From Bdellovibrionota bacterium (GTDB lineage Bacteria > Bdellovibrionota > Bdellovibrionia > Bdellovibrionales > JAMPXM01), in NCBI GenBank assembly GCA_963170185.1, contig CAUJGS010000119.1:1-38222 (forward strand): a DNA stretch of 38,222 nt. Reading direction: 5' to 3'. Made by a program: the position numbers and the translations under genes. The notes under the pieces are model-generated. The model searched no databases and was not told the origin of the DNA. It saw only the letters and a program-made list of their open reading frames with translations. This document shows positions 18,449-25,357 of the stretch, piece by piece. Each line of letters opens with the position of its first letter. Position 1 is the first letter of the stretch.

Positions 18449-19150
18449 TTAAGCGGCTTCGAGCTTGTAGCCGACGCCGTAAACGGATTCGATTTTTGTT
18501 CCTGTGTCCGCGATTTTACGGCGAACAGCGCAGACGTGATGGTCAACGACGCGCGGGGATACGTGGATCTGATCACCCCAGACCTGATTCAAAATCGTCT
18601 CGCGTGGAACGATTGAACCATTCTCACGTAAGAAGAGAAGAAGCAGGCGAAACTCCACGGGTGTGAGGTCGAGTTCTTTTTTCTGACCGCCACCGGCGCT
18701 TGGACGAAGATCAAAGGCACGTTGTTTTTCGAGATCGAGTTCAAGCAGTCCGGCACGGATGTGAGACGAGGTGACTGTTTTTGTTTCGCGTCTCGAGAGG
18801 TGTTTCAAACGCGAAGAGACGCGAACTTGAAACTCGACCGGATCAAATGGCTTTGCGATGAAGTCTTCCGCTCCGAAAGTGAAACCTCGAACTCGCGTGT
18901 TCACCGAGTCATAAGCTGTGAGAAGGATCACAGCCGTGCCTTCTTGCAGGCCGCTTCCTAGGAAGTCGACACCGTTTCCATCTGGAAGATCGACATCGAG
19001 AAGGACGAGATCAAATCGCTTTTTTTCGTTTAGCGTACGACGAGCTTCCGCAAGGGTCGCTGCCCAAGTCACCTGGTGCTCCTTCGAAAGAAGTGCCGTC
19101 ACCATGTTTTTTACGTCTTCGCTGTCGTCTACCAAAAGGAGATTGGCCAT
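18449..19150 (-). CDS. OmpR/PhoB-type response regulator (orphan)
   Basis: A 233-residue DNA-binding regulator. The receiver domain has LLVDDSEDV with the acidic pair, LVLLDVDLPDGNG with the phospho-acceptor Asp at about residue 50, LLTAYD, and IAKPFDP with the conserved Lys. The C-terminal winged helix shows LDLTPVEFRLLLLFLRENGSIVPRE and HVSPRVVDHHVCAVRRKI, ending in SVYGVGYKLE. The ATG at 19150 follows GGAGGG; the frame reaches back to 19174 without a better site. No histidine kinase gene lies in the window next to it. Genes on both sides are on the same strand but separated by about 100 bases, so it is probably transcribed alone. Confidence 0.95.
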   Translation of the reverse strand: MANLLLVDDSEDVKNMVTALLSKEHQVTWAATLAEARRTLNEKKRFDLVLLDVDLPDGNGVDFLGSGLQEGTAVILLTAYDSVNTRVRGFTFGAEDFIAKPFDPVEFQVRVSSRLKHLSRRETKTVTSSHIRAGLLELDLEKQRAFDLRPSAGGGQKKELDLTPVEFRLLLLFLRENGSIVPRETILNQVWGDQIHVSPRVVDHHVCAVRRKIADTGTKIESVYGVGYKLEAA

Positions 19151-19241
19151 TTCTTTTGCCCTCCGAACAAACATATCGGCCGAAAGCGTGGAAAAGTTGA
19201 GCGCACGGACCGCGTACAGACTTTGGTCACATGGTTTTGGA

Positions 19242-19261
19242 AGCCCTTGTTATCAAGGGCT
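19242..19261 (-). terminator. Hairpin overlapping the stop of the permease/barrel gene
   Basis: Perfect 8-bp stem AGCCCTTG / CAAGGGCT with a 4-base loop, covering the stop codon at 19253-19255. Only a short TT follows on the minus strand, so termination is uncertain. Confidence 0.4.
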
Positions 19262-21025
19262 ATCTGGCGATCCGCCGGGTGCTTCAGACCCTGTCAGGAA
19301 ACTGAACCCCACCAACACGAGGAGCGAAGATCCGGGTGAAAATCGATGGCGAAAGTCGGCTCGAAATAAGACGGGGCTGCTCTGGCCGCCAATAGGAAGG
19401 CGAATGCCGCCACCGTAATGCCAGCCACCGGCGCTACGAAAGTCCTGCTCGCGTCCCTTGAAGTAATCCATATGAAAGCCTAGGAGAAAGTGGACAGGCA
19501 GTTCATCAAGTGCGGAGGCGCCGGCTAGCGACATGCGGTAGTCCAGTGAGAACGCGTTATAGATGATGTCATCACCGCGCCCATGGGCCCAGTCGACTTC
19601 GAAAAAACCTCTCTCGGTTCCGGTTCCGACTCTTAGTCCCCAGGAATTCTGGATTTCGCGCACTCTTGAGATTTTGCTAGGGAGAAATGGGCCAAAACCG
19701 ATTCCAACTTCGGTTTGAGCGTGAACGGCATTTGGACCAGCAAGCATCGCCGAGAACGCGATGAGTGCCGCGATCGAACCGAGAGAGGCTGGTGCGAGCA
19801 AGCGTTTTGATTGCCGCAACCACCAAACAAACGCCCAAACCAAAAGCCCAAGGGCACCGATCATGAGGAAGTGCAGACGATAGCCGAAGGCCTCCGCGGA
19901 AAGCCCCGAGAGCGCGCTGGCGGCGGTTTGCGAGATGACCACGATGGATGCTTGAATGGTGTAGTCACTTGCCGAATGACCTTTGCGGCAGCGATCCATC
20001 ATCGCGGCAAACAGCGTGACGGTGGCAATGCCGCTGACACCGTTGTCGATCGCCGTGGCGAGTGCCACCTTCCACGTCGCGTGCGAGGTGAAGATGGGAA
20101 GAAGATAGGTCGCCGTTGCCAGAGCCTGAATACCGCTTAGTACCACTAAGCTTTTTAGCCGGTCGAATCGGCTGGCGACAAAACCGCCAAGAAGTGCGCC
20201 GACAAGCCCGGCACCTGAGCCAAAGAGACCCATCAGGGCTCCGATTTCATCTAGCTTGTAACCGTTGTCGACCAACCACGGTTTCATCATCGCGCTGGCG
20301 GCTTGATGGCTAAACTTGTAGACGAGAAGAATAAAAAGCCAGGGGACGATTCCACCTTGAGAAAAAAAAGCGCGAAGATCGCGAACGGGGTGACGCTCAA
20401 GTTTGGGATCGACGCGTTCGTGGATCTCTCCCAATACGTCGCGTTCGCGAAAGAACAGAGCGGGAACCGTCATGAGTGCCATGGTCACGGCCATGGTGAG
20501 CATCGCCGGTTGCCAGCCCCAGTGCGCTAGCAACGTCAGCATAACGGAACCGCCGGCGATCATGCCGACGCGGTAACCGCCGACTTGGATACCATTGGCC
20601 CAGCCGCGTTCCTCATGGCTTAAAAGGTCCACAGCCAGCCCGTCGGTGGCGGCATCTTGCGTAGCGGTTAAGAGGTTGCAGATCAAAAACGCGACCAAGA
20701 CCACCATCAGCGATTCAGCCGGATCGAGAAACGACACCAAAAACAGCGCCAAAACGGAAGCCAGTTGCAGGGGAAGAATCCAACTGCGACGAAGTCCCAG
20801 CTTCGGAAATCCATAGCGATCGGCAAGTGGTGCCCAGAGAAACTTTAAAGCCCAAGGCCAGGTAAGAAGGGCTGCGCCACCGATTGCGGCAAGGCTCATC
20901 TTCGCTTCGCGCAGGTAAACCGGCATGGCTTGTGTGAAAAATCCGTACGGAAGACCTTGAGAAAAATAGAGACACGCAAAGAGCGAGAATTTTTCAATCG
21001 GTGCGATCTTGTTTTTCGAACTCAT
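19253..21025 (-). CDS. AmpG/PAT-type MFS permease with an additional C-terminal signal peptide and barrel-like domain
   Basis: A 590-residue reading frame. Residues 1 to about 402 are a 12-helix MFS permease of the AmpG/PAT group: [65 protein letters not shown]. AmpG permeases import anhydromuropeptides for cell-wall recycling; related PAT members move other acyl or sugar compounds. From residue 403 the frame continues as a perfect secretory signal (RQSKRLLAP, a hydrophobic run, GPNAVHA) and then a 160-residue beta-rich domain with alternating aromatic residues ([31 protein letters not shown]) like an outer-membrane barrel. An in-frame TTG at 19819 could start this part as a separate 188-residue protein. 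The start overlaps the GDPD stop (ATGA). Confidence 0.88.
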
Positions 21026-21885
21026 CGACGTGAAATCTCATCTAGCCACTGCGCGGCCTTCACGGCTTCGTTGGTAAAGGCCCAATCAACGCCTCTCGCC
21101 CATTCGCGAAGCAGACTCGGCTTTGAATTGAGAAACCCAACTCCGCACGATTGATGAGCGGCCTGATGCCGCTGCAAGAGAGCTTCGGTCATCGCCAGCC
21201 AGTGGCAGGTGAAACCCGCATAACCTTCTTCTAGTGTACGGTCGGAGGCGGCTTGCACGTTCCATTCGACCACGCTTACCAGTGCCGACTTTGGAAGGCC
21301 TTTTAGCTGATTGAGGGCTTTTAGGATTTCAAAATCAAATGCCATGAAGTGAAACTGTTGGGCCGGTTGTAGGCCTTTGGCTTTTAAGGGTTCTAGCAGG
21401 CGCTCCAGGCGCAGATCTGTTAAGTCGCTTCGTTCGCCTTTGATTTCGATGAAGAAATGGAAGCTAGATCCATACTCGGCCACAACTTCGTCAAATGTCG
21501 GAATCTCTTTGGCTTCGTGGCGAAGGGTTGTGAGTGTGGTGGCTGAGATATTGATAGGGCGACCAAAAGTACGAAGCAGCGAATCGTCGTGATGCACGAC
21601 CGCGATGTCATCCTTGGTGAAGCGAACGTCGAACTCCAGGCCCCAGACGCCTGCTTCACGCGCGCGATCAAACGCCGAGAACGTATTTTCGATGCAGCCA
21701 CGCTCACGCCAGGCCCCACGGTGCGCGATCAGTTTCAGTGGTGCGCGCGTTTTAGGGCGAGAGCCTTTTGGTTGTGGAAGTTTTTCTGCGGCCCAATCGG
21801 CGGCCTTCATAAGAAGGTCGAGCGCTGTCTCGCGCATGTGCGGCGAGACGAGCGGGGATTGAAACCGTGGTTTGGTGGGTGTCAT
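21022..21885 (-). CDS. Glycerophosphodiester phosphodiesterase
   Basis: About 287 residues. The GDPD domain has the catalytic-site motifs LIAHRGAW (about residue 53), [30 protein letters not shown], and FFIEIKGE. These give the His pair and acidic metal ligands that hydrolyse glycerophosphodiesters to glycerol-3-phosphate and an alcohol. No signal peptide is visible, so it probably acts in the cytoplasm on imported or released headgroups. The ATG at 21885 is preferred over the GTG one codon earlier. It begins 12 bases after the NlpC-like gene and its stop overlaps the permease start in ATGA, so translation of the permease is probably coupled to it. Confidence 0.93.
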
Positions 21886-21897
21886 CACCCACCGATT

Positions 21898-23484
21898 CTA
21901 TTCGATGAGGCGTGGGGCGCAAGAGCTGAGACAATCTTCTTTGGCTAGACTCAATGCCGTGTCGCGACACTGGGCTGAGCCATTGTGGCGAACGATACTT
22001 GTCTTCGAAGACGAACTCGAAACTGTGCCGCTTGAAAACTGTGCTTTGCACGCATTCACAGCATGTTCGCGTAGACCCGCGCCCATTGTGCCTGAATCCG
22101 TTAGGTAGTGACGGGCATGCATGCGGTTGATGCCGATACTGCCTTTGCTTGGCGAGCTTTGAAAGAGCGTGAACTGGAAGTTTTTAACGCTGATATTCGC
22201 TAACTTGCATCCAGCAGCAGAGTCGATTTTCGCTAGCCCAAAGGGGTCGGGGCCAACGTCTTCCACCATGATCACGTGGCCACGGATGGCGATAATGTCG
22301 CCGGCTTTTAGCGTCTCACCACGTTTGAACTTTGCGTGCTCAAGGCAGGTAAGACCATTTTTCTGCGGGTCCGCCATCATCGAAGACGAAACGCCCTTGA
22401 TGAGCGAAGCTTTGAGGCTGGTTTCTTTTTTTAGTTTTAAACCGCTCACCGCATAAGACGAGTAGACGAAGGCCGAACAGTCGATACCAAGTTCTTTCGA
22501 TCCTGAACCGGCATTGCGGAAAAGATCGAGAAGCTTGTCATTGGATGTCGAGGTGTAGGGCTTTCCGCCGTAGTCATAGATGGGTGGGGCTTTAAGAATA
22601 TCGTGGCACTGAGGGAGTGGACGACGGTATTGGTTCAAATAAGGATGTGTGGCGATCATCTTTTTAAGATCTTTGATCTCGCGCACGTTGCCCGTTCCGC
22701 TAGAGTGACGCCCAACGACCGAAATCCCTTGAATGTCAGATGTCTCGGGCCCCAGTGGTTCGTGTGTCGCGGCTTCGCAGCTCTGGTAGGCTACGGCGAT
22801 CGTCTTTAGCCCGCCGTAGACAGGAGCTGTTTCCGTATTCTTCCAATGATCAAAGAGATTCGTCGCGGTCACGGGCGGAGCCGTCGGCTCGGGCTCGGGA
22901 ATCGGCGTCGGAGGCGGTGTTACGCAGGATGCACGTAAGATTTCGCCGTCGGCGTTTGCGAGTTCCGACATCTCAGTCAAAATCGCATGCACGCGATCGA
23001 CGTCATCGGATTTCTCTTGAGTCGTGCGGTCGCCGATTTCGAGTTGGGCAATTCGCTCCAGCCAAAACTCACGGTTCTCCTCTGGAGAAAGTGGGGCAAG
23101 GCGTTTTTGTCCTGTCATCGAATCGTTGCGAAGCCGAATGACGTCGGCCAGATCGGATGTGAGGGCGCTCACGCGAAGCTGCGACTTTTCGTTCATGAGG
23201 CTCATGCGCTTCGATTTTTTTAGCATTTGTTCGAACGTCGATTTGATGGCGGTCGGCTGCGGCGGTTCGCCATGCTCTTCGATGTAAGCGGTGAAGCTCG
23301 TCCAAAGCTTGTCCTCAAAGTTCTGACAACCAAACGTCTCGTCGACTTTGTCGGCGATAGACTGCGTGATCGGCGAGAACGAGTTCGAACATCCGGTCGC
23401 AAGCAGCACGCAGAGAGCGGTGCCTGTGACTTTGCCAGTTGTCTTTAAAGTCCTTGAGCGTGATTTCTGAGTTTTTTGTCGCAT
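21898..23484 (-). CDS. Lipoprotein with NlpC/P60- or CHAP-like cysteine peptidase domain
   Basis: A 528-residue exported protein. The basic N-terminus is followed by TALCVLLATGC, a lipobox with Cys32. Residues 40-185 are helical; a Pro-rich linker (TPPPTPIPEPEPTAPP) separates them from a C-terminal enzyme-like region. There GIDCSAFVYSSY (Cys336) and AGDIIAIRGHVIMVEDVG (His403) match the Cys and His motifs of NlpC/P60 or CHAP peptidases, which cut peptidoglycan peptides. The ends are Cys-rich (SAQCRDT, DCLSSCAP). It is the first gene of a three-gene operon with the GDPD and the AmpG-like permease, which fits peptidoglycan and lipid breakdown followed by uptake. The substrate is inferred, not shown. 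Confidence 0.82.
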   Translation of the reverse strand: MRQKTQKSRSRTLKTTGKVTGTALCVLLATGCSNSFSPITQSIADKVDETFGCQNFEDKLWTSFTAYIEEHGEPPQPTAIKSTFEQMLKKSKRMSLMNEKSQLRVSALTSDLADVIRLRNDSMTGQKRLAPLSPEENREFWLERIAQLEIGDRTTQEKSDDVDRVHAILTEMSELANADGEILRASCVTPPPTPIPEPEPTAPPVTATNLFDHWKNTETAPVYGGLKTIAVAYQSCEAATHEPLGPETSDIQGISVVGRHSSGTGNVREIKDLKKMIATHPYLNQYRRPLPQCHDILKAPPIYDYGGKPYTSTSNDKLLDLFRNAGSGSKELGIDCSAFVYSSYAVSGLKLKKETSLKASLIKGVSSSMMADPQKNGLTCLEHAKFKRGETLKAGDIIAIRGHVIMVEDVGPDPFGLAKIDSAAGCKLANISVKNFQFTLFQSSPSKGSIGINRMHARHYLTDSGTMGAGLREHAVNACKAQFSSGTVSSSSSKTSIVRHNGSAQCRDTALSLAKEDCLSSCAPRLIE

Positions 23485-24202: not shown

Positions 24203-25357
24203 TCATCCGTTTGGAGAGGGTTCTTCAAGGTCGGGCTGAGCCTCGTCGAAAAGCACCTTCTCACGGGCCGGTAGGACAACAGGATCTGCAAGAACCCATT
24301 GATACTCGGCCACTACTTCCTGCGCCAAGAATCCTCCAGATGAGTACTGAAGAAACTTGTTCGCCCAATCGGTCGACGAGCTTGTCGACGTCTCGGCTGG
24401 TCGTATGAATTTCGCTCGGAAATCCGATAACCCACGGAATATCCCTACGAAAGACCCGAGATACTGACTTATTTTCCGTGCCGGGTCAAATGCGATCACC
24501 TGATCTTCAAAACCTTCAGGGCTGGCAAGCAAGATCCAAGGAGCAGCATCCGGCCCTCGGGCCATGGAAACCGCCTCAGAGAGGCCGTAAGGCGACGAAA
24601 TTGCTAATGTTCTGCCATTTGCGCAGTTGTAAAACACGATCGGGTTAGTAATCTCTTGCCCATCTTGTACGAGCTTTTCCGGGATGAAAACGACCTCCGT
24701 CGCCGAAATCCGGGTCATGCAGCGTACGTTTTCAGCAAATGTTTTCGACCGACCAGCCTCGTGGTTGAAGCTCGTGAGCATGCGACCTTTGAGATCAAAA
24801 AAGGCGATGGCGGTGCGCTGTTGAGGTTCAACTTTGTGGCCAAATCGTTTGGCGGAAAGCGGGTGGTAGGCGACGGCGATCAAGCCGCCCTCTAGTGGGC
24901 TGATCTCGACAGCCGCACTGCCGATCGCAAACCGGGCTTCGACTTCGCCTTTGCGATTAAGAATCCAGGTATTCTCGCCGTGCGCCGATTCAAAGCTCGT
25001 GTCGCTCACGAGGATGCGCCCATCCGGCAAGCTTCGTACGAAGGGGAAATCTGGGTTCTTCCACTCGGGTGGAAGTGTCAGGCGTTCGGTGCCGGCAAAA
25101 AGGCTTTGGCCAAACTGGTTGCCCTGAATCGAAAGCCAGGGCGAGATCGCCAGGTTAAACGCCGATTGCTCGAAGTCAGGACCCGCGAGCTCGCCAGAAT
25201 TCAAAGCACCACCCTTTGTCAGCAACTGCTGAAGGGCGTGCGTGTCCAGATCCACATCGCCGACGGTGCCGATATCGAGTTCGAAATCGAGCACGCCGCG
25301 AATAAGACCCGGAGTCCGTTGAGGCGCCTCTGGTGGCGGGTTTGAGCCAAAATGCAT
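24203..25357 (-). CDS. Hypothetical protein, possibly beta-propeller
   Basis: A 384-residue protein with no signal peptide. From about residue 90 it shows several blade-like units of the form LPDGRILVSD, WILNRKGEVEARF, GGLIAVAYHP, AIAFFDLKGRMLTSFN and VIAFDPARKISQYLG, typical of bacterial beta-propeller proteins that lack a strict WD signature. I do not recognise the family. It starts 33 bases after the lon stop on the same strand and may be co-transcribed with lon; a GAGG lies close to its ATG. A 6-bp hairpin (24186-24202) directly follows its stop, and a run of nine T on the minus strand lies further on (about 24153), so transcription may end before rpsN. Confidence 0.68.
   Translation of the reverse strand: MHFGSNPPPEAPQRTPGLIRGVLDFELDIGTVGDVDLDTHALQQLLTKGGALNSGELAGPDFEQSAFNLAISPWLSIQGNQFGQSLFAGTERLTLPPEWKNPDFPFVRSLPDGRILVSDTSFESAHGENTWILNRKGEVEARFAIGSAAVEISPLEGGLIAVAYHPLSAKRFGHKVEPQQRTAIAFFDLKGRMLTSFNHEAGRSKTFAENVRCMTRISATEVVFIPEKLVQDGQEITNPIVFYNCANGRTLAISSPYGLSEAVSMARGPDAAPWILLASPEGFEDQVIAFDPARKISQYLGSFVGIFRGLSDFRAKFIRPAETSTSSSTDWANKFLQYSSGGFLAQEVVAEYQWVLADPVVLPAREKVLFDEAQPDLEEPSPNG

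Follow-up and report, generated by a model that had tools for sequence, protein, structure and literature searches.

We propose that one open reading frame in the window (the whole 38,222-nucleotide stretch of DNA analysed here, from a Bdellovibrionota bacterium) arose naturally when two genes that once lay side by side were joined, one for an AmpG-like inner-membrane permease and one for a small outer-membrane barrel. Its product would be a polyprotein with an internal signal peptide, where signal peptidase I would separate the two parts, so that the permease stays in the inner membrane and the barrel goes to the outer one. Based on the sequence comparisons described below, we put the probability of this reading at roughly 0.6. 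The frame consists of 590 codons on the minus strand, from the ATG at 21025 to the end of the stop codon at 19253, and contains no internal stop. From the N- to the C-terminus it holds an AmpG-like permease (residues ~9-405), a putative signal peptide (residues 403-436, ending in NAVHA, with Q as the first residue past the cut) and a predicted barrel (residues 437-590). The original prediction had read a permease, a signal and a barrel in one frame, which was borne out by the continuous frame, the domain matches and AlphaFold2 (AF2) modelling, and it was right to pose one polypeptide and nested starts as the alternatives. The features are as follows.

21022..21888, minus strand: upstream gene, glycerophosphodiester phosphodiesterase family (GDPD; PF03009, E 1.9e-20)
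19817..21025, minus strand: AmpG-like MFS permease domain, residues 1-403, 12 helices (TIGR00901, 8zgz, AF2 helices)
19718..19819, minus strand: junction with the TTG codon 403, n-region LRQSKR, hydrophobic core and c-region NAVHA (signal features)
between 19718 and 19717, minus strand: predicted signal peptidase I cut, after residue 436 (features common to the four other fused genomes and to the signals of free-standing homologues)
19256..19717, minus strand: predicted 8-stranded outer-membrane-type β-barrel, residues 437-590 (AF2, Foldseek)
19253..19255, minus strand: stop codon of the fused frame
18449..19174, minus strand: downstream gene, OmpR-type response regulator with a strong Shine-Dalgarno site (PF00072 and PF00486)

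The permease part was matched by TIGR00901 at residues 15-402 (E 9e-74), by MFS_1 at residues 17-353 and by the solved AmpG structure 8zgz in the PDB at residues 12-388 (E 2.5e-38), the last being a full-length MFS match. In the AF2 model of the full ORF, helices continued up to residue 405, a separate helix spanned residues 415-435 and strands started from residue 438, with low confidence at the join. A 12-helix MFS permease had been predicted to end at about residue 402; the fold was retained and the boundary was not, as the last helix extends to residue 405 and abuts the proposed signal n-region (from ~403) or overlaps it by a few residues. The protein resembles the AmpG muropeptide permeases (the AmpG/acetyl-CoA transporter/RhtX group of the MFS) in having a full-length 12-helix permease, and AmpG is its top-scoring named family. 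It differs from them in bearing an in-frame signal peptide and barrel, and in its TIGR00901 score of 248 bits, which is under the curated cut-off of 350; AmpG family membership by this score was not reached (248-250 vs 350 bits), and the substrate may therefore differ from that of AmpG. This permease was the sole AmpG-type hit in the 3.5-Mb draft genome. The recycling setting is like that of AmpG in the presence of S66 (LdcA-type) peptidase and GH3 (NagZ-type) genes in the same genome, and unlike it in that a search of the whole genome gave no hit for AnmK (anhydro-muramic acid kinase) despite these recycling-type genes. Judged from these matches, muropeptide import by the permease appears plausible. 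AmpG-like genes were also present in phage records, none of them covering most of the query.

The C-terminal segment, earlier described as barrel-like, was modelled alone (154 residues) by AF2 as eight strands with a pLDDT of 86.9, and strand 1 began at residue 2 past the cut site. Foldseek matched this model to Ail, OmpA, OprF and OmpX (best E 2.7e-5, TM ~0.6), suggesting that the domain is an OmpX/OmpA-like 8-stranded outer-membrane barrel. It is similar to OmpX/Ail and to the N-domains of OmpA and OprF in predicted fold and size, and its free-standing homologues carry an N-terminal signal peptide as these proteins do. It differs from them in sequence, with only 9-15% identity to its fold matches, and searches of Pfam, NCBIfam and the PDB returned no sequence family matching the barrel domain of the window.

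The barrel family was searched for in 60 genomes and then in 141 genomes of the order (144 of the class), and was found in 50 of the 141 (53 of the 144). Its homologues occur both as separate genes and as the same fusion, the two forms for which a search had been suggested. Ten members scoring above 190 bits make up the close barrel group, and the rest are free-standing frames of 137-255 codons; the other copies in the class, about 70, are all free-standing. One of them is a second paralogue in the same genome as the window (G000:C114:3363-3839), which has an ordinary N-terminal signal peptide. Five of the ten close members are fused to the permease, namely those of the window's genome, of G004, G002 and G001 from the same genus, and of G012 from another genus of the family. 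The fusion is hence present in four of the five genomes of the window's genus and in one genome of the second genus. The fused frames of the five genomes are 580-623 codons long with no stops, and the other fused proteins are 49-72% identical to the window protein. In the closest split relatives, the permease and the barrel are neighbouring genes, with a stop/start overlap in two of them: GTGA in G003, which belongs to the window's genus, and ATGCTTAA in G008. The two genes are separated by a gap of ~100 nt in G006 and of several hundred nt in G005, and the contig that carries the barrel of G009 showed no permease. A 570-codon frame in G007 was considered as a further fusion and rejected, as its extra length lies upstream of the permease and no barrel lies behind it.

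A single clade in the permease tree (99/99) comprised the fused genomes together with G003, whose neighbour within it was G002. The concatenated tree (up to five proteins) supported this clade with 100/99 and required two changes of the fused state, and a tree grouping the fused genomes only was rejected (AU test, p 0.02), while the support of the barrel-only tree was too weak for use by itself. The simplest history suggested by these trees is that the genes fused once, long ago, in the ancestor of the two genera and that a single fission then occurred in G003. The G003 split could also be an assembly frameshift, in which case the fusion would be universal in the clade. Since the fused genomes belong to one clade with one nested split member, the frame has been kept open through a large divergence and across four junction lengths, all whole codons.

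The junctions, measured from the conserved GYxxHF to GFGP, are 64, 66, 66, 72 and 73 residues long in the five fused genomes, and their sequences could hardly be aligned. Signal peptides were judged by simple features and no trained predictor was used. In all five fused genomes, the net charge of the n-region lies between +2 and +4, the core is hydrophobic and free of charges (KD 2.0-2.9), and the cut site has Ala at -1 and V, S, A, A or G at -3; these features match those of the free-standing homologues. These features, and the comparison with the N-terminal signals of the free-standing homologues, suggest that the helix region at 415-435 is a cleavable signal peptide. Preservation of the cut-site pattern in spite of junctions that hardly align is what would be expected if the barrel must still be released.

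We infer the following course of events. One polyprotein would be made from the fused ORF, and the permease would insert with its C-terminus in the cytoplasm. The old signal peptide of the barrel, now internal, would start further Sec translocation, and signal peptidase I would cut after VHA (residue 436). The freed barrel would pass through the periplasm to BAM for folding into the outer membrane, and a 12-helix permease with a short tail ending in the spent signal helix would be left behind. In the cytochrome b/c1 polyprotein encoded by Bradyrhizobium fbcH, signal peptidase cleaves at a signal within the chain. There, too, an inner-membrane protein with several spans is continued in the same frame by a signal peptide and then by an exported domain, so that one gene gives two proteins, as is proposed here for the permease-barrel ORF. 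However, both products of fbcH stay in one inner-membrane complex, whereas the second product of the window's frame is a predicted outer-membrane barrel whose cleavage we infer. To our knowledge, few bacterial polyproteins are processed by signal peptidase, and we are aware of none in which an inner-membrane transporter and an outer-membrane barrel are combined; a search of the open-access literature found no precedent paper for signal-peptidase-cut polyproteins, fbcH included.

A more specific proposal, which we put forward tentatively and at slightly less than even odds, is that the barrel lacks its own start codon and can reach the outer membrane only by way of the signal peptide inside the fused protein, after the inner-membrane importer, with one translation event supplying both membranes 1:1. 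If this is true, the reason for the 1:1 supply may be that the barrel and the importer handle one substrate along a common route. The fusion links an AmpG-like importer to a family of barrels that is so far uncharacterised and hints at a shared role in the uptake of cell-wall fragments, and the fused, split and re-split relatives amount to a natural test of whether a protein can do without its own start codon once an internal signal peptide is available.

Translation of the barrel from an internal in-frame codon (TTG 19819 in the window, ATG or GTG in the relatives) is a weaker alternative to the signal-peptidase-cut polyprotein, and we consider it unlikely, with perhaps one chance in four; the upstream product would then be a permease with a read-through tail, or a mixture of both forms would be made. 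The stop/start overlaps in G003 and G008 are in its favor, as they point to a start near the join as the state outside the fused clade, but stop-coupled reinitiation cannot work after the stop is lost. The TTG at 19819 (codon 403), which the original prediction had offered as a second start, showed an anti-Shine-Dalgarno pairing energy of -3.0 against a background median of -2.85, and was rejected as a clear second start since its ribosome-binding signal was not above background. For the downstream response regulator, the energy at the ATG (MANLLLVDD) was -10.0. The weak site at the TTG is no proof against initiation, because the stop/start-coupled genes of G003 and G008 also lack good Shine-Dalgarno sites. 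In G004, an in-frame ATG located exactly at the signal peptide is preceded by the strong Shine-Dalgarno-like AAAGGTGA (L004:2698-2776; -9.5, ~1st percentile of background), although one such site can be due to chance when several codons are tried per genome. A GTG with a moderate site (-6.4) was found in G001 and an ATG with none in G002, and dual products from an internal start are possible in G004 and G001 by these sites. In the fused G012, the stretch that follows the last permease helix and precedes the core contains no ATG, GTG or TTG except one GTG that leaves no charged n-region, so that a usable start is missing in this one genome. A sigma-70 scan for an internal promoter found none, which is weak evidence.

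Cleavage of the polyprotein by signal peptidase I was also weighed against one uncut trans-envelope protein, in which a 13th helix would serve as an anchor and the beta domain would stay joined to the permease in the periplasm. The continuous, conserved frame and the AF2 helix at 415-435 between the two domains, where the confidence was low, are consistent with such a protein. It is nevertheless very improbable, given that all five fused genomes have preserved the cut-site pattern, that the domain is a predicted 8-stranded outer-membrane-type barrel and that a split form arose within the fused group. Without cleavage, the barrel would have little chance of getting to the outer membrane or spanning the periplasm, because strand 1 starts right after the site with no linker. 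Hence, the 13th membrane helix leading to a periplasmic domain, as earlier suggested, is unlikely, and the helix is better explained as a cleavable signal peptide with the barrel directly behind it. The genomes are drafts, metagenome assemblies among them, but an error of sequencing or assembly, or a fusion that is recent and without function, is scarcely credible when five assemblies from clearly distinct species share the fusion, and is ruled out for the group by these genomes and the tree. Separated parts in relatives, which had been named in advance as the mark of an artefact or recent fusion, were indeed seen in some of them; that interpretation is excluded because, in the tree, the fusion is old and the one split form, G003, is nested inside the fused clade.

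The fused gene is part of a same-strand run encoding an NlpC/P60-like predicted lipoprotein, GDPD, the permease-barrel protein, the response regulator, ApaG, MgtE and superoxide dismutase. The GDPD stop and the permease ATG overlap by 4 nt (ATGA). An ORF of 384 residues with no Pfam match lies upstream of the run (window 24203-25357, minus strand). The run is opened by the predicted lipoprotein (window 21898-23484, minus strand), which has 528 residues, is NlpC/P60-like just under the cut-off and is conserved in relatives. GDPD and the response regulator also flank the permease/barrel pair in other members of the genus and in G012.
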